Shown here piece by piece: positions 11,358-22,470 of a stretch of 64,000 nt of DNA. The notes under the pieces are model-generated. The model saw only the letters and a program-made list of their open reading frames with translations. It was not told the origin of the DNA and made no database searches. The position numbers and the translations under genes are program-made. Source of the stretch: Pelagibius sp. CAU 1746 (GTDB taxonomy: Bacteria > Pseudomonadota > Alphaproteobacteria > Kiloniellales > Kiloniellaceae); NCBI RefSeq assembly GCF_039839785.1, contig NZ_JBDOQT010000001.1, positions 1,736,001 through 1,800,000 of the forward strand. The letters run 5' to 3'. Position 1 is the stretch's first letter, and every line of letters starts with the position of its first letter.

Positions 11358-11864
11358 CTAGCGCCCGCCCTTGATCTCGCGCTCGTAGATGATGGCGCCG
11401 CTGTTCTTGGCCACGGCGTCGTAGAGCCGCCGCGCCGTCGCGTTGTCGCCTTGCGTCTGCCAGTAGACGCGCTTGGCGCCCGCCGCCGTGGCCGCGTCGC
11501 AGACCGCCTCGATCAGCGCCCGCCCGACGCCTTGCCCGCGCGCCGCCTCGGCGGTGAAAAGGTCCTCCAGGTAGCACAGCGAGCCCAGGACATTGGTGCT
11601 CAGGTGATAGAGGTAGTGGGTGAAGCCCAGCAGGCTGCCGTCCTCCGCTTCCGCCACCAGTCCCCACAGCGGCTGGGCATCGTCGAAGAGCCGCCCCCAG
11701 GTCATCGCCGTCACGCCGGGTGCCACCGGCGGCTCGCCGGCCGGCCCCCAGGCGTGCCCGTAGAAGACGTTGTAGGCATGCCAGAGGGGAAGCCACTGGT
11801 CGTGGTCGTCAGGGCGCGGCGGGCGGATGAGGGGGGAGGTGGAAATCAAGATCTTTGTGTTCAA
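11358..11864 (-). CDS. GNAT-family N-acetyltransferase
   Basis: A 168-residue GCN5-related acetyltransferase. The acetyl-CoA-binding motif A is clear: LYLEDLFTAEAARGQGVGRALIEAV, with the R-G-Q-G-V-G loop. It is followed by VYWQTQGDNATARRLYDAVAK, the usual motif B region. The start is uncertain. The frame opens with TTG at 11864, whose bases overlap the TGA of the helicase gene upstream, and no ribosome binding site is good. The helicase gene belongs to a lower-G+C island that ends about here, so the island may have replaced the original start of this gene. The tail is also abnormal (see the orphan tail downstream). Substrate is unknown. Confidence 0.78.
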   Translation of the reverse strand: MNTKILISTSPLIRPPRPDDHDQWLPLWHAYNVFYGHAWGPAGEPPVAPGVTAMTWGRLFDDAQPLWGLVAEAEDGSLLGFTHYLYHLSTNVLGSLCYLEDLFTAEAARGQGVGRALIEAVCDAATAAGAKRVYWQTQGDNATARRLYDAVAKNSGAIIYEREIKGGR

Positions 11865-13744
11865 AGAGTAACGATGTCGTCTGATTGAAAGAATGTCTTG
11901 GCTTGGATTGCTTCGCGCATTCGTTCGACGTCTTCAGCAAATACGACAACTGCCAAGTCATGGAGGGCGCGCGAGCAGCACACGTAAAATAACCGCCTCG
12001 TTCGATCGATGACGGAGTCTTTCTTTTGGTCGATATTATCTTGATCTTTTGCGGTGAGCTCAGTGACTCCAAAGTATTTTCCGTAAGAGAACGCAGGATT
12101 TACACCCTCTTGGTCATCAATGACTAAAAGAACCTTTTCGAACTCGGCCCCCTTGATTCCCTGCTGGGTGGCGAAAGGTGAAAGATCCTCAATATAGCGG
12201 CGATAACCCCACAATTCAGTTGCCGGGCTTAGCGCGAAGCGGTGAGCAGCATTCTCAGGTGCCTCCTGTTCCGGTGGTTGACCTTCTTGGTACAGCTTAA
12301 GAAGATCATCGAAACGTTCGTCGAGTGCCAGGAGCCTATTGTTTTTAAGGAACAAAAAAATATCACCGATTGTATGGCCGCCATCTGGTTCAAATCGCTG
12401 TGTCAATTCAGCAATATTGTCCTTCAAATCTGCAAGAATCTCAGCCGCATCTAAGCCTGCCAAGTGTTCGGGTTGAAGGCACGGGCAATATCGGCGCAAC
12501 ATCCGCATCACCTCGAACTCAGAATTGCTATGCTGTGCGGCAATCAACGGCAAAATGTAAGAAAGGAAAGGCCTTACAACCCAAGCTGTGCCATCTACAA
12601 GTCCTGACTTTAGGTCTTCGGGCGCCTTATCGTTAAGCGCTGAATAAATGCTGGGAAAGCCAAGTCGGTTAGCCGCCATCCGATGGACGAGAACAAGGAG
12701 CCGTATGTCAGCCTCCACCGCATCCTCGTCTGCGCACCAATCTTCGTCGTCATCTTGTTCGGCAAGCCAAGATCTTGCGTTTTCAAGGCGCTCTTGCCGC
12801 CTTTCGTCTGCGGGCAATATCACGACTCGTGCCGTGCCCTGGACAAAGACATTTTTGCCATTTATCTCCTTTACGCGGCCGCCCGTCTGCTCAAGCCGGT
12901 CATCCTCTGCACGAATGCTGTTGATAACCGCTAGCACTTTCTGTGGGCAACGAAAATTCTCAGGTTTCCGCAGCGTCACCCAACCTTCCTCCGTTGCGAT
13001 CGGGCCAGCCCCTTGCATGTAGATTTTCTGTACTGGATCACCGAAGAACCCGAGACATAAATCGTGGTATCCATCCGTTGCAATGATTCGGAGCGCCTCA
13101 ACGAAATTTGGATCGGTATCCTGACTCTCATCGACAAAGATAACGGGAAATCTACGTGCGATGACCTTGCGCATGATTTCACTGTTGCGGATAAAATCCG
13201 GACCGATGCTTAGGATGTCGCTATGCCCCAGGATGCCGTTCGAGTAGTCACTTCCGGTGCCATAGCGGAAGGTCTTCACCCGTTTGATCTCATCTTTTTG
13301 GCGGGTATAGCGTTCTATATCTTCCGCTGCTTTTGCCTTTGTTGTTGCGCGGCTACGAGGATTCCCGATTTTCTCATTCGCCTCGGCGATCTTTCGATCG
13401 AGTCGCTCAAGCACCCAGGTTCGCAGGTTCTTTTGGAAGGGCTTAATAACAGTCCAAAGAAAGCTGTGAATGGTTGAAATATGAAATAGGTTGTCGCCAC
13501 CGACATCACCTTTGATCTCCTCCACAGCAACTTCCGTATAAGTGATGCAAGCAATCTGTTTCCCCTCACGCCTAAAGCGCGGGCCTTGTGAACATGCAAG
13601 GTGTGCAAGGGCTTTGACGAGCGAAGTGGTCTTTCCTGAACCAGCGCCAGCAACCATCACGAAGTGACGGGTGCCCTCGCTATTCAGGCGGTCCCGAAGG
13701 GCGACGTCGGTCTCGGTGTCAGGTTTGCCTATGCGGCTCGTCAT
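11861..13744 (-). CDS. UvrD-like superfamily 1 helicase (GajB-like partner of OLD nuclease)
   Basis: A 627-residue SF1 helicase. Walker A is VAGAGSGKTT at 31-40, the Walker B/DEAD-like motif VIFVDESQDTD lies near 205, and the DNA-binding motif FFGDPVQKIY near 235. Late motifs are GIKGAEFEKVLLVIDD near 530 and RLFYVCCSRA near 585 (motif VI). Its ATG overlaps the TGA of the upstream OLD nuclease gene by four bases (ATGA), the tight coupling typical of class 2 OLD / Gabija pairs. Codon use and composition are clearly less G+C-rich than the flanks. It is longer than GajB of Bacillus (about 500 residues), mainly through insertions in the middle. The predicted role is abortive or direct defence against phage DNA, by family knowledge. 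Confidence 0.88.
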   Translation of the reverse strand: MTSRIGKPDTETDVALRDRLNSEGTRHFVMVAGAGSGKTTSLVKALAHLACSQGPRFRREGKQIACITYTEVAVEEIKGDVGGDNLFHISTIHSFLWTVIKPFQKNLRTWVLERLDRKIAEANEKIGNPRSRATTKAKAAEDIERYTRQKDEIKRVKTFRYGTGSDYSNGILGHSDILSIGPDFIRNSEIMRKVIARRFPVIFVDESQDTDPNFVEALRIIATDGYHDLCLGFFGDPVQKIYMQGAGPIATEEGWVTLRKPENFRCPQKVLAVINSIRAEDDRLEQTGGRVKEINGKNVFVQGTARVVILPADERRQERLENARSWLAEQDDDEDWCADEDAVEADIRLLVLVHRMAANRLGFPSIYSALNDKAPEDLKSGLVDGTAWVVRPFLSYILPLIAAQHSNSEFEVMRMLRRYCPCLQPEHLAGLDAAEILADLKDNIAELTQRFEPDGGHTIGDIFLFLKNNRLLALDERFDDLLKLYQEGQPPEQEAPENAAHRFALSPATELWGYRRYIEDLSPFATQQGIKGAEFEKVLLVIDDQEGVNPAFSYGKYFGVTELTAKDQDNIDQKKDSVIDRTRRLFYVCCSRALHDLAVVVFAEDVERMREAIQAKTFFQSDDIVTL

Positions 13745-15969
13745 GCAGCCTGATCCTCTCCGCCTTCTTTGTCAGTGATCGCCACGCCTAGCTCTTTCTC
13801 GAGCCAGAGCAAACCTTCTAAGATGTACGATGGCACTTTCCAGTCAACTGGGCCTTTTGCGAGTAGTGCTAGAGCGAAGTCAGTCTTCTTAAAGCTCGAC
13901 CTATGAATTCGCTTGTGTAGACGTTCCCCAACGCCTTCAACATCATTCACGTTGGGTATGCGCAAACCAAGATCCGCATTCACCTCGATTTGCGTCCAAG
14001 CTAGATTTTCGAATGCGAAAGCTTCTTCGAATGTCCGTCCTGCGCGGTCTGAGATGTTATTGTCCAGTTCAAGCTGAACAGTTAAGGGGTAAGTCACCCG
14101 TACACCAAACGAGTGTTCTCCATCTTGATATTGCGTTTTAGCTTCAGGGCCGAGAGCCAAAAGCTGATCAATTTGCTCTCGTGCAGGCAGCCAGTCGATC
14201 AACATCCTATTCGAGGTGACAGCGTTTGGTTCTTCTGGCCGACATGTGCGCCCAGGTTTTGCTCCTTCAATCTCTTCTTCATTGCCGCTTTTATGATTGC
14301 CGGTTTCGCCGCTGTTTGCGTCGGCCTCTTCTCCTGGCCCGGCGCCATACACGCTATCGAGATCGGTGATTATCAACGTCGTAATGCCGAGAAACTCAAT
14401 CAACGTGCGGAACCGATGGGCAAATGCGCCACCGACTTCGAGCACGCTCAGATATGTTGATCTCAAGCCCGGCGCGGAATTTAGGATGAACTGGGGCATG
14501 AGAAGCCTCTCTACATTGCCTTCTACGAGTATTGCGGCGTCTGCAAAGAAGAGGTCGCAGTGGGTGAGCTTTAGGTATCGCTCTAGAAAATCCCGACTCG
14601 GATTTGCGGTTCGTTCGTAGAACTCCGAGAGGTTTAAGACCCGAGAGCGCTGGGTTAGTCCGCTATTTTCCCGGCGAAAGTACCTAATAGGGCGGAAGCC
14701 TCGTTCGTAGAGAATGTGTGGAGAATGGGTCGTCAGAGCTAACTGTGTTGTAAAAGATGCGATGCCGTCGGATTCCTCGGCGAGAATGCCGAGTATCTTA
14801 TTTACGAAAACTTGTTGAAGTTGTGCGTGCAGGTGCGCTTCTGGCTCTTCGACAAACACCAGATGAACGGGAGGTCGGTTTTTCTCGGTATCTATCCACT
14901 GCGCGTGATAATCGAGCAGTTGGACAACCATGTAGACAAGGTTCTTGAAACCTAAACCGCTGTACTTGTCAGGAAGAGTTAGGTCACCATCATCAAGAGC
15001 GTAATGGACCTGCGTCCCGTCATGGCTGCTCATGACGGTTGCCGGGTTCAGCGCTGATCTAATGACGAGCCGTGGATTGGTAAGACCTGGATAGCCCAGT
15101 TCGGCAAGATGGGAGAGCGTGCCCGCAAAAACTTGCTCGAGGTGAGAATCAAGTAGTCTCTGCGATTCCGATAGTGCGCGAATCGCGTTGAAGTCGTCAG
15201 CATGTCTCTCAAGATTGCGGCTATAGTACCGGCCAAGATGCTTCGATAGCTCTTCGGAACGACTGCCGCCTTCGCTATCGGAGAGGTGCCTTTGAGCGTG
15301 AAGTGTGTCAGCTTTTATAAGAGAGTCGACAATGTCTTTCCCAGTGCGCCCTTGTTCCCGAAGTAGCTCGAGAGGTGCGTAGTCTGCGCGAGGTTCGAGT
15401 TCCTCATCGAACTGCGCAGGGTCGAGTACGAAATACTTGAACCCATACTCACGCTTGATCTCCTTCTGAAGATATTCGGTGAGGTTCCGCGGGAAGGCGA
15501 CAAATTCATCTTGATGTTCTGCACCTGCGGCATTTTCGGCTGCGGCTGCCGCCTCTTGGGAGAGCCGTTGTTTTTCCCTGAAGCGTTCAAGGGTTTCTTG
15601 CGGTCTCTGTGACTCAAAACTTATCCGAAGGCCGACTCGGCCACCTTGCCAATCGAGACTCGGCAGTAGATCAATGACGCGATGTAGGTCGTCATCGTCG
15701 ACCGAGAACCAGAGATCTATCGCCATCCAAGGAAGCGCCGCGTCATTTTCACCGCGCGCGAATGCTTCAATCTCGGCCCAGAGGCTCGCGCTGATGTCGT
15801 GAAAAGAAAATCTGTCGCGTGAACCTGATAAGAATGAATGGATTGCTTGTGCTACTGAGGTCTTTCCGCTGTTGTTGGCGCCAACAAAGATTGAGATGTC
15901 CTTGTCAAAGTCGATCTTGGTATCCATCAAGCGGCGGTAGTTGTGAAATCTCACGTTGCTCAGATGCAT
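13741..15969 (-). CDS. OLD-family ATP-dependent endonuclease (GajA-like, class 2)
   Basis: A 742-residue protein with an N-terminal ABC-type ATPase and a C-terminal TOPRIM nuclease. Walker A is VGANNSGKTS near 29-38, the signature YSGLGFKNLVY near 335, Walker B HLVFVEEPEAHLHAQ near 370, and the H-loop TTHSPHIL near 400. In the TOPRIM domain the metal-binding acids are present: ILVEGNVERLL near 481 and LIITDLDS near 535. An acidic, Gly/Glu-rich insertion follows the TDLD motif (about residues 540-585). Coupled to the helicase gene by a four-base overlap, it forms a two-gene module. Known GajA proteins are about 580 residues, so this is a long form. The OLD/UvrD pair is an established anti-phage architecture; activity of this copy is inferred. 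Confidence 0.9.
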   Translation of the reverse strand: MHLSNVRFHNYRRLMDTKIDFDKDISIFVGANNSGKTSVAQAIHSFLSGSRDRFSFHDISASLWAEIEAFARGENDAALPWMAIDLWFSVDDDDLHRVIDLLPSLDWQGGRVGLRISFESQRPQETLERFREKQRLSQEAAAAAENAAGAEHQDEFVAFPRNLTEYLQKEIKREYGFKYFVLDPAQFDEELEPRADYAPLELLREQGRTGKDIVDSLIKADTLHAQRHLSDSEGGSRSEELSKHLGRYYSRNLERHADDFNAIRALSESQRLLDSHLEQVFAGTLSHLAELGYPGLTNPRLVIRSALNPATVMSSHDGTQVHYALDDGDLTLPDKYSGLGFKNLVYMVVQLLDYHAQWIDTEKNRPPVHLVFVEEPEAHLHAQLQQVFVNKILGILAEESDGIASFTTQLALTTHSPHILYERGFRPIRYFRRENSGLTQRSRVLNLSEFYERTANPSRDFLERYLKLTHCDLFFADAAILVEGNVERLLMPQFILNSAPGLRSTYLSVLEVGGAFAHRFRTLIEFLGITTLIITDLDSVYGAGPGEEADANSGETGNHKSGNEEEIEGAKPGRTCRPEEPNAVTSNRMLIDWLPAREQIDQLLALGPEAKTQYQDGEHSFGVRVTYPLTVQLELDNNISDRAGRTFEEAFAFENLAWTQIEVNADLGLRIPNVNDVEGVGERLHKRIHRSSFKKTDFALALLAKGPVDWKVPSYILEGLLWLEKELGVAITDKEGGEDQAA

Positions 15970-20570: not shown

Positions 20571-22124
20571 CTAGCGGATCTGGAAGCCGACTTCCGCGGT
20601 GTCGCCGATCCCCGTGTTGCGCTGGACGATATCGGCCAGGCTGCCGGTGTTCTCGATGATCGTCAGGCCTTCCGGCGAGAAGGTCTCTGCATTGTAGACC
20701 GCTTCGGCGAGCAGCGGGTTGGTCAGGGCCTGGGTGAAGGCGTCGTTGGCCACCATGGTCTTCAGGAGATCGCCCATCATCTCCTTGTCGTCGTAGCCCT
20801 CGGCGAAGATGCCGACGAACCATTCCAGCTTGTCGATGTCGCCGTAGGCGTCCTTCAGCTTGGCGGCCAGCGCCGGGTCGCGGGTCAGCTCCTCGAAGCT
20901 CTGCGCCGGCTTCTTGCCGTAGTAGCCGCGGTAGGCGTTGTAGGGCGCCAGCTCGCAGCGCCGCGCCATGGCGAGACTGCTTTCCTTCACCTTCATGAGG
21001 AAGTCCGGCGTGTTGCCCAGGGCGATCTTGCCGGCAAGCTGGTGGGAAGCCTCGCGGCAAACCCGGTCGATGCCGGTCTCCAGCAGCCAGGCGTTGCCGT
21101 GCCGCAGGGCGCTGGAATCGCGTGTTTCGCCGTTGAAGCTGACGGTGGAGGGGATGAGGTCGTGCCAGCGGTAGAGCAGGGCGAACTCCACCGCGATCCA
21201 GTTGGTGCGGTACCAGCGCTCCTTCTCCGCCATGCCGGGGACGGCCATCAGCGGGAAGTCCGCGGGCGCGATGTGCACGATGTAGTCGCCGATGACGATC
21301 TTCAGCAGCAGCACGATGCAGATGTTGCGCGTGGTCTGGAACAGGCGCTCGTCGTCCCAATCCGGATGCGCCTTCTGCAGCTCCCCGGCGATGCGGTTGT
21401 GCTCGCGCAGGAAGAGGGTGTTCATCAGCGTGTTGCCGAGGGTCGAGTTGCCGTGCTCCAGCCCGACGGCGAAGCTGGTCTTCTTGTGGGCGTCGTCGGC
21501 GTTGGCGAAAACGCGGTTGAAGTTGTCTTCGCTGTAGAGTTTCTCGAACTCCGGGCGCAGCTGCACTTGTCCGTCGCGCTCCTCGAACAGCGGCGCGGGA
21601 AAGATTTCGCCGTCGATCGTCTGGCTCTTCAGGCGGCCGCCTTCGAAGCTACGCAGCATGGCGGTCTGCGCTTCGGTGATGCCGTAGATCTGGCAGAGAT
21701 CGATTTCGTGGTTGCTCTCGTTCTCGGAGAAGTCCTGCTCGTCCGGCTTCTTCCACTTGGTGCGCAGGAAGCTGTCGGTAAACCACTGCGCGAAGAAGGG
21801 GAAGAGCAGGCTGGTGTCGCGGGCGCGCAGGTCGCTGGTTTTCGCGAACAGCTTCAGCACCTCGTCCTGCGGCGGCAAGGCGGCGTTGTAGGCGGCTGCG
21901 GCCGGCAGATGGCGGCCGGAAAACCGCCGGTCGGTCAGTCCGCGCCAGGTGGTATAGGACGCCGCCATGGAGAAGGGGCGCGGGCGCGGTCCGGTAGCGT
22001 AGGCGTAGGTGTTGATAAGGCGCTTGTTCAGCAGGCGGTGCAACGGCGGCACGGCGGTGACGGCCTTCAGGGCCGCGCCGAGCAGCCGGTCCTTGAGGGA
22101 GGTCTGTTTTTCGCTGCCGGCCAT
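20571..22124 (-). CDS. Cyclooxygenase-like animal haem peroxidase (prostaglandin H synthase family)
   Basis: A 517-residue animal-type haem peroxidase with unusually clear likeness to vertebrate cyclooxygenases. HEIDLCQIYG near 139 matches the distal-His segment GHGVDLGHIYG, and FEGGRLKSQTIDGEIFP follows as in the animal enzymes. LREHNRIAGEL matches WLREHNRVCDLL, and RLFQTTRNICIVLLLKIVIGDYIVHI is colinear with the cyclooxygenase helix. ALLYRWHDLIP near 320 keeps the equivalents of the radical Tyr385 and the proximal His388. YNAYRGYYGKKPAQSFEELT and the C-terminal NDAFTQALTNP align with the region of aspirin-target Ser530, here Thr. No signal peptide or EGF domain is present. ATG 22124 has AAGGGGAA upstream. 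The predicted role is fatty-acid dioxygenase/peroxidase; substrate unproven. It stands alone. Confidence 0.88.
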   Translation of the reverse strand: MAGSEKQTSLKDRLLGAALKAVTAVPPLHRLLNKRLINTYAYATGPRPRPFSMAASYTTWRGLTDRRFSGRHLPAAAAYNAALPPQDEVLKLFAKTSDLRARDTSLLFPFFAQWFTDSFLRTKWKKPDEQDFSENESNHEIDLCQIYGITEAQTAMLRSFEGGRLKSQTIDGEIFPAPLFEERDGQVQLRPEFEKLYSEDNFNRVFANADDAHKKTSFAVGLEHGNSTLGNTLMNTLFLREHNRIAGELQKAHPDWDDERLFQTTRNICIVLLLKIVIGDYIVHIAPADFPLMAVPGMAEKERWYRTNWIAVEFALLYRWHDLIPSTVSFNGETRDSSALRHGNAWLLETGIDRVCREASHQLAGKIALGNTPDFLMKVKESSLAMARRCELAPYNAYRGYYGKKPAQSFEELTRDPALAAKLKDAYGDIDKLEWFVGIFAEGYDDKEMMGDLLKTMVANDAFTQALTNPLLAEAVYNAETFSPEGLTIIENTGSLADIVQRNTGIGDTAEVGFQIR

Positions 22125-22429: not shown

Positions 22430-22470
22430 AAAAAAAACCCCTCCCGCGCTGACCGCGGGAGAGGCTTTTT
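22430..22470 (-). terminator. Rho-independent terminator of trcR
   Basis: On the minus strand the stem CCTCTCCCGCGG / GCGCGGGAGGGG-like is followed by a run of eight T. It starts about 18 bases after the trcR stop. A shorter T run on the other strand makes it partly bidirectional. Confidence 0.88.

Follow-up and report, generated by a model that had tools for sequence, protein, structure and literature searches.

A Pelagibius protein of the cyclooxygenase branch with an aspartate at the distal histidine position, a probable fatty-acid dioxygenase

Cyclooxygenases (COX) generate their tyrosyl radical through a peroxidase step, in which the distal histidine is generally given a central role. 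A bacterial enzyme to be set beside them, the linoleate 10S-dioxygenase (10S-DOX) of Nostoc punctiforme, was reportedly described by Brash et al. in 2014. The Nostoc enzyme (UniProt B2J5P4, 542 aa; PMC13049297, PMC9579011) turns linoleate and oleate into 10S-hydroperoxides, and a catalase-related lyase encoded by a separate gene can process its product (PMC13049297). According to the covered portions of that account, it has F143tdsF where COX has F205thqF, Phe in place of Tyr504 and Ala487 in place of Ser530, a central motif IMxxYIxxITP and a terminal motif ending IGxDAFxQA, and the dioxygenases (DOXs) have a "unique and conserved Arg" at COX Val291 (PMC13049297). The peroxidase-cyclooxygenase superfamily also includes alpha-dioxygenases (alpha-DOX) and the fungal 8R/10R-DOX (LDS), which are likewise Tyr-radical haem dioxygenases (PMC13049297), and its bacterial "Family 4" cyclooxygenases have been described as putative sequences (PMC4420034). 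Bacterial COX homologues are already described as a group, and one cyanobacterial enzyme is characterised in the portions of the literature covered here. A distal Asp that deprotonates H2O2 is described for a B-class DyP (PMC6153280).

The gene considered here lies in a 64,000-nucleotide stretch of the genome of the marine bacterium Pelagibius sp. CAU 1746 (the window). Its product shares with the Nostoc 10S-DOX a COX-like fold, a similar length (517 vs 542 aa) and the FTDSF helix, together with Asp for His207, Phe for Tyr504, Ala for Ser530, a central motif YIxxI(T/A)P and a terminal motif DAFxQA (PMC13049297), but it has Val for Ile483, Ala for Thr310 and no IPAxxAR stretch, and at the COX Val291 position it carries His224 where the DOXs have their conserved Arg (PMC13049297). 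The protein agrees with the CHARACTERISED enzyme class on Asp, Phe and Ala and not on Arg. This comparison is made against the motif strings printed in PMC13049297, and the protein agrees with 5/15 and 5/9 of their specified letters, a Paracoccus homologue with 8/15 and 6/9; the reaction class is therefore taken over from the Nostoc enzyme, and the 10S specificity is not. A counterpart of the Nostoc lyase partner gene does not adjoin the window gene, the neighbours of which are TrcR and Ldh_2. With animal COX-1/2 (PGHS), the protein has in common the fold, Tyr385, Tyr348, His388 and Trp387 and a similar N-terminal stretch, but it has no EGF domain, His207 and Val291 are replaced by Asp and His, and Arg120, Tyr355, Gly526 and Ser530 are not kept. 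Fungal DOX, unlike the Pelagibius protein with its Asp117, keep the distal His (PMC9579011, PMC13049297), as do five bacterial alpha-DOX-type rows that form a separate clade. The protein would be filed in "Family 4", the account of which does not mention a distal Asp or Arg/His/Asn variation in the text portions covered (PMC4420034).

Gene, predicted fold and tree placement

The reading frame of the COX-like gene fills positions 20571-22124 of the minus strand exactly, from an ATG at 22124 to the stop at 20571 (517 codons from the ATG). With the start at AGGGGAAAACAAGATGG, the product of 517 aa equals the P. marinus homologue in length (517 aa), and the ATG is preceded by AGGGGAAAACAAG. The plus-strand frame over 20571-22124 is also open; given the strong matches of the minus-strand protein, it is regarded as antisense. 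Comparison with five close relatives gives dN/dS values of 0.23-0.39: the gene is under purifying selection, and it is genuine and conserved. A TrcR gene on the same strand (PF06242) lies upstream of it, and an Ldh_2 gene (PF02615) converges on it from downstream. In the interval that separates TrcR from the COX-like gene, a GC-rich hairpin with GGG and a run of eight T behind it was spotted by eye (22430..22461, minus strand), and the COX-like gene is therefore probably transcribed separately from TrcR, on a transcript of its own. The hairpin scan lists the plus-strand form only, its total of 2 not being above that of shuffles (mean 2.7), and a promoter scan found nothing. In another part of the window (11861-15969, minus strand) lies a two-gene Gabija-type anti-phage system, comprising a GajA-like gene (842.6 bits) and a GajB-like UvrD helicase gene (744.9 bits) with a 4-base frame overlap.

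By sequence comparison and modelled fold, the protein is closest to COX-2. The first-pass annotation of this DNA had proposed a colinear similarity to PGHS, and this is borne out by phmmer searches of the PDB, in which human COX-2 matches over residues 80-503 (E 2.8e-59) and mouse COX-2 over residues 22-503 (E 5.3e-59), and by Pfam, which reports PF03098 (164.4 bits, cut-off 25; E 4.9e-48). PF03098 is the sole domain, so there is no EGF domain, as had also been claimed. All of the segments LREHNR, ERLFQTTR, YRWH, YNAYR and AFTQALTNP that the annotation named are present in the translation. COX-2 and COX-1 make up the best 35 of the 60 PDB matches listed; beyond COX, the matches listed continue with peroxinectin A (E 7.6e-21), with alpha-DOX at E 2.9e-13. 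With a profile built from 23 relatives, COX-2 scores 355 bits, compared with 116 for peroxinectin, 112 for alpha-DOX and 105 for lactoperoxidase, and the family profile puts the similarity to PGHS at E 5.5e-105. It is the sole PF03098 match in its genome, and an NCBIfam search of the 517-aa protein assigned no family. The AF2 model, of middling confidence (15 alignment rows; mean pLDDT 79.6, pTM 0.84; pLDDT <50 at residues 1-8, 47-70 and 122-139) matches COX-2 in Foldseek with a query-normalised TM of 0.82-0.83 and 28-29% identity, compared with a TM of 0.65-0.69 for alpha-DOX, 0.65 for DdPoxA and 0.65-0.67 for myeloperoxidase.

The N-terminal region (residues 10-42; 21999..22097, minus strand) is predicted to form two helices, at residues 10-24 and 26-42 of the AF2 model, and part of it aligns with the segment of COX-2 that precedes the catalytic domain. 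Residues ~20-44 align gap-free to COX-2 in the profile alignment, with a stretch that we take to be the end of the membrane-binding domain. The hydrophobic moments of the two helices, 0.31 and 0.22, are ordinary (all 15-mers: mean 0.24, sd 0.13), and the most hydrophobic 19-residue window of the protein, residues 268-286, lies within the putative haem domain. The first-pass statement that a membrane-binding domain is missing is not confirmed by these observations, and the protein may or may not bind membranes.

In a 44-row tree, from which L003 and L074 were omitted as near copies, one branch (100/99) has 21 bacterial COX-like and two COX-2 rows on one side and five alpha-DOX-type and 16 bacterial peroxidase rows on the other, and the five bacterial alpha-DOX-type rows form a clade of their own (100/100). 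The join with COX-2 is again 100/99 when the two distal-site columns are left out, in a 42-row tree of 32 COX-like, two COX-2, five alpha-DOX and three of the 16 peroxidase rows. In these trees, human and mouse COX-2 are the sole animal COX rows, and neither fungal DOX nor the Nostoc enzyme is included; treekit gave warnings of long branches and of unusual composition. The protein belongs to the cyclooxygenase branch, apart from the alpha-dioxygenases and peroxidases used; it groups with COX, and the placement among peroxidases without dioxygenase activity that would have spoken against the annotation is not seen.

Active-site residues and the distal pair

Residues were mapped by alignment, with COX numbers taken in part from PMC13049297. 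The YRWH motif (residues 318-321; 21162..21173, minus strand) aligns Tyr318 with the radical Tyr385 and His321 with the proximal His388, and the correspondence of this tyrosine to Tyr385, on which the first-pass annotation had hung its reading, holds by sequence alignment and by the overall fold match (TM 0.83). Tyr281-Ile282 (21279..21284, minus strand) correspond to Tyr348-Val349, so that Tyr348 is kept and Val349 is changed. Leu384 (Leu317), Trp387 (Trp320), Phe205 and Phe209 (Phe115 and Phe119) and Phe381 (Phe314) are kept as well. Changed are Ser353 (Ala286), Tyr355 (Ala288), Tyr504 (Phe436), Val523 (Lys455), Gly533 (Gln465) and, in the least sure column of the alignment, Arg120 (Tyr40). 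In the distal helix, COX FAQHFTHQF corresponds to FAQWFTDSF (residues 111-119; 21768..21794, minus strand), in which Gln203 is kept as Gln113 and Asp117 replaces the distal His207. The EHG stretch (residues 223-225; 21450..21458, minus strand) places His224 at the COX Val291 position, which is Arg in the peroxidase rows. The terminal substrate motif VANDAFTQA (residues 458-466; 20727..20753, minus strand) has Val458 at Gly526 and Ala462 at Ser530, with Thr464 two places on, at Lys532. The distal His that had been read into the sequence is therefore an Asp, and the reading of the aspirin-target serine as a threonine is wrong as well. Gln113, Asp117, Tyr281, Tyr318, Trp320, His321, Asp461 and Ala462 are invariant in all 23 A1 rows.

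In two MAFFT alignments, the Asp117 column holds Asp in 21/21 bacterial COX-like rows and His in the 23 others (16 peroxidases, five alpha-DOX and two COX-2). Wider searches gave 98 loci (L088-L185), 20 of which were read: 11 are further relatives with long, strong matches outside A1 (494-692 bits with the A1 profile; L136 without its C-terminus), six are weak matches of peroxidase or alpha-DOX type (99-136 bits), all with His, and three are fragments without the distal column. Together with the 23 A1 rows, Asp is found at the distal position in 34/34 bacterial COX-like proteins read, the window protein included. The COX Val291 column is Arg in 16/16 peroxidases, Asn in 5/5 alpha-DOX and Val in 2/2 COX-2, and varies among the 34 COX-like proteins, with Arg in 22, His in 10 (the window protein among them) and Asn in two. 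In the 42-row tree with both distal columns blanked, Asp needs a single change, and the Arg/His/Asn variation inside the bacterial group needs two; the nine His rows of this tree, with the Pelagibius genus, L046 and L110 among them, form one group (92/87, just below the starred level). Because its root is drawn at the midpoint, this tree gives the number of changes without their direction. For the Asp/His distal-site variant of the Pelagibius lineage, no earlier description was found in the literature surveyed: neither the Pelagibius protein nor the His/Arg/Asn variation is mentioned in the titles and abstract starts covered, a survey with most subscription papers and preprints outside it.

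Proposed reaction and rival readings

Within the cyclooxygenase branch, the protein is probably a haem b fatty-acid dioxygenase, with Tyr318 as the radical residue, Asp117 and His224 at the distal site and a hydroperoxide product without a ring. This reading is preferred on account of the unusual FTDSF motif, which the Nostoc 10S-dioxygenase has as well (PMC13049297). Of the first-pass proposal of an oxylipin-forming fatty-acid dioxygenase, the dioxygenase part is the preferred reading and oxylipin formation may follow from it, but the literal label "cyclooxygenase" is not earned, because Arg120, Tyr355, Gly526, Gly533 and Ser530 are changed. In the proposed mechanism, ferric haem, with His321 as the proximal ligand, would bind peroxide, and Asp117, with the help of His224 and Gln113, would split the O-O bond in place of the usual distal His/Arg. 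The ferryl haem so formed would oxidise Tyr318, and the Tyr318 radical would abstract an allylic or bis-allylic hydrogen from an unsaturated fatty acid held in the COX-like channel; O2 would then add, and a fatty-acid hydroperoxide would be released with no ring formed. The role of the distal Asp is supported by analogy with the B-class DyP Asp that deprotonates H2O2 (PMC6153280), and a catalytic role of His224 is suggested by the fact that the Arg of the peroxidases occupies the same alignment column.

On a wider scale, the distal pairs can be set beside those of the superfamily, His/Arg in peroxidases and His/Val in COX-2. Tentatively, the bacterial COX-like enzymes might represent a third solution to peroxide activation, mostly Asp/Arg and, in the Pelagibius lineage, Asp/His, with the His on a different distal stretch; such a lipid oxygenase would fire its tyrosyl radical without the usual distal His and make its own hydroperoxide signal.

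Several other activities have to be weighed against the dioxygenase. COX-2 comes out first both in the sequence searches and in the predicted-fold comparison, and the equivalents of Tyr385, Tyr348, Trp387, Leu384, Phe381, Phe205 and Phe209 are kept, as a true cyclooxygenase making prostaglandin-type endoperoxides from C20 fatty acids would have them; however, the changes at Arg120 (Tyr40), Tyr355 (Ala288), Ser353 (Ala286), Gly526 (Val458), Ser530 (Ala462), Gly533 (Gln465) and distal His207 (Asp117) speak against such an enzyme, and the nearest characterised bacterial enzyme found yields a simple hydroperoxide (PMC13049297, in the portions covered). Prostaglandin formation appears unlikely from these residues; the prostaglandin synthase was rejected for its changed channel residues and distal His207, and a true cyclooxygenase is very improbable. 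Oxygenation of fatty acids at C2 by an alpha-dioxygenase is the least credible reading: the superfamily is the same and the profile match to plant alpha-DOX reaches 112 bits, but COX reaches 355 bits in the same search, and the five bacterial alpha-DOX-type rows, with distal helix QFMVHDW and YRMH, form the separate 100/100 clade outside which the protein falls, which led to the rejection of this candidate.

A haem peroxidase that reduces peroxides or oxidises small molecules without oxygenating lipids is unlikely, although it would fit the membership of the peroxidase-cyclooxygenase superfamily (PF03098) and the polar distal site (Gln113, Asp117, His224), and DyPs function with a distal Asp (PMC6153280). 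Against it, the tree joins the protein to COX and leaves the 16 bacterial peroxidase rows used outside that group, and the radical Tyr is invariant in 23/23 A1 rows, whereas the same column of the peroxidase rows varies between Tyr and Phe. Additionally, the Asp and Glu to which an ester role is ascribed in peroxidases (PMC4420034, in the portions covered), present in 13/16 and 15/16 peroxidase rows, are Thr116 and Ser227 here; on these grounds, the plain peroxidase was rejected. The absence of the distal His that all 23 comparison rows possess could also mark a haem protein that has lost catalysis and serves as a sensor, a haem store or a relic. Yet the Asp is common to 34/34 COX-like proteins read, the working Nostoc enzyme has the same motif (PMC13049297), and the gene is kept in 7/8 genus genomes under purifying selection, so that lost catalysis is a distinctly improbable explanation; the relic was rejected on the conservation of the Asp and the purifying selection. 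The fatty-acid dioxygenase remains the preferred reading.

Distribution, gene neighbours and meaning

Homologues are present in 7/8 genomes of the genus Pelagibius, and a full-length match is found in 9/23 genomes of the family sample; the order sample adds no further genomes with a match (9/61). In the phylum draw, 4/398 genomes have a strong match, the window's own genome included, and 18/398 have any match. Strong matches occur in 2/199 genomes in the order of G441, in 11/292 in the order of G674 and in 1/369 in the class of G448, the last as two pieces on two contigs; PF03098 overall is found in 31/385 class genomes. Among plasmids, the match covers most of the protein in 12 of the 14 records that have one. 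Some homologues have at least 100 extra residues (L029, 674 aa; L163-L165, 671-677 aa), and the N-terminal extension of L029 (691-1075) is hydrophobic by eye. The draft genome G020 carries two different gene copies on two contigs (L012, L102), L005 resembling the second contig; this indicates either a second paralogue or a mixed bin.

Eight of the 14 plasmid regions were read, seven of them annotated (the R. gallicum region has no annotation). A P450 gene lies directly upstream of the homologue in two regions (L069 and L071; R. etli and S. medicae), and a "catalase family" gene adjoins it in two others (L070, P. yeei; L072, M. currus); neither kind of gene is present in three of the seven annotated regions (two Acaryochloris, one Ruegeria). 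These P450 and catalase-family neighbours in 4/8 plasmid regions count for the dioxygenase reading, as such enzyme kinds process fatty-acid hydroperoxides. The L071 P450 has bacterial P450s among the best 60 of 283 structure matches, and the L069 and L071 proteins reach NCBIfam P450 models only far below the cut-offs. The catalase-like assignment of the L070 and L072 proteins rests on PGAP names, a weak PF00199 match of the L072 protein (28.8 bits; none for L070) and 40% mutual identity; among solved structures, the L072 protein matches three catalases only, weakly (E 0.001), and the L070 protein has no match. In the Paracoccus yeei region, the catalase-family and COX-like genes form a row with a third gene, which encodes a RoxA-like cytochrome c domain (PF21419, 70 bits; L070, 3078-4937). 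In two related genomes, the gene next to the COX-like gene (L079, 7387-9657; L080, 3599-5788) is by eye (MDGAELSNISKCPVMH) presumably like the catalase-peroxidase KatG.

At the Pelagibius locus, no partner gene was found beside the window gene among its two neighbours, the same-strand upstream TrcR and the convergent downstream Ldh_2. SDR-like and acyl-CoA-synthetase-like genes (by eye) lie 3' of the homologue, as in the window, in all six genus loci with downstream sequence (L001-L004, L083, L085), only L001 and L004 of which have the Ldh_2 gene. Upstream genes vary within the genus, and a LysR-type gene lies just upstream in two relatives (L003, by Pfam; L085, by sequence likeness only). The sole PF00199 match in the genome is a full-length catalase elsewhere, and a diverged lyase could escape Pfam, as the L070 protein does; the one P450 of the genome is encoded ~229 kb from the window gene. 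The genome also holds four FA_desaturase-family matches, so unsaturated substrates are possible, and the names of the sources from which relatives come (dinoflagellate bin, BBD) point, at most, to a setting rich in PUFA.

A bacterial branch without the distal His, in which the Nostoc enzyme works with the same motif (PMC13049297, in the portions covered), offers a natural test of how far the peroxidase machinery is needed by a COX-type oxygenase, and the occurrence of His, Arg and Asn at one neighbouring site makes this test a comparative one. In turn, the P450 and catalase-family neighbours of some homologues suggest that bacteria may have built lipid-mediator pathways from fungal- and animal-like kinds of parts.
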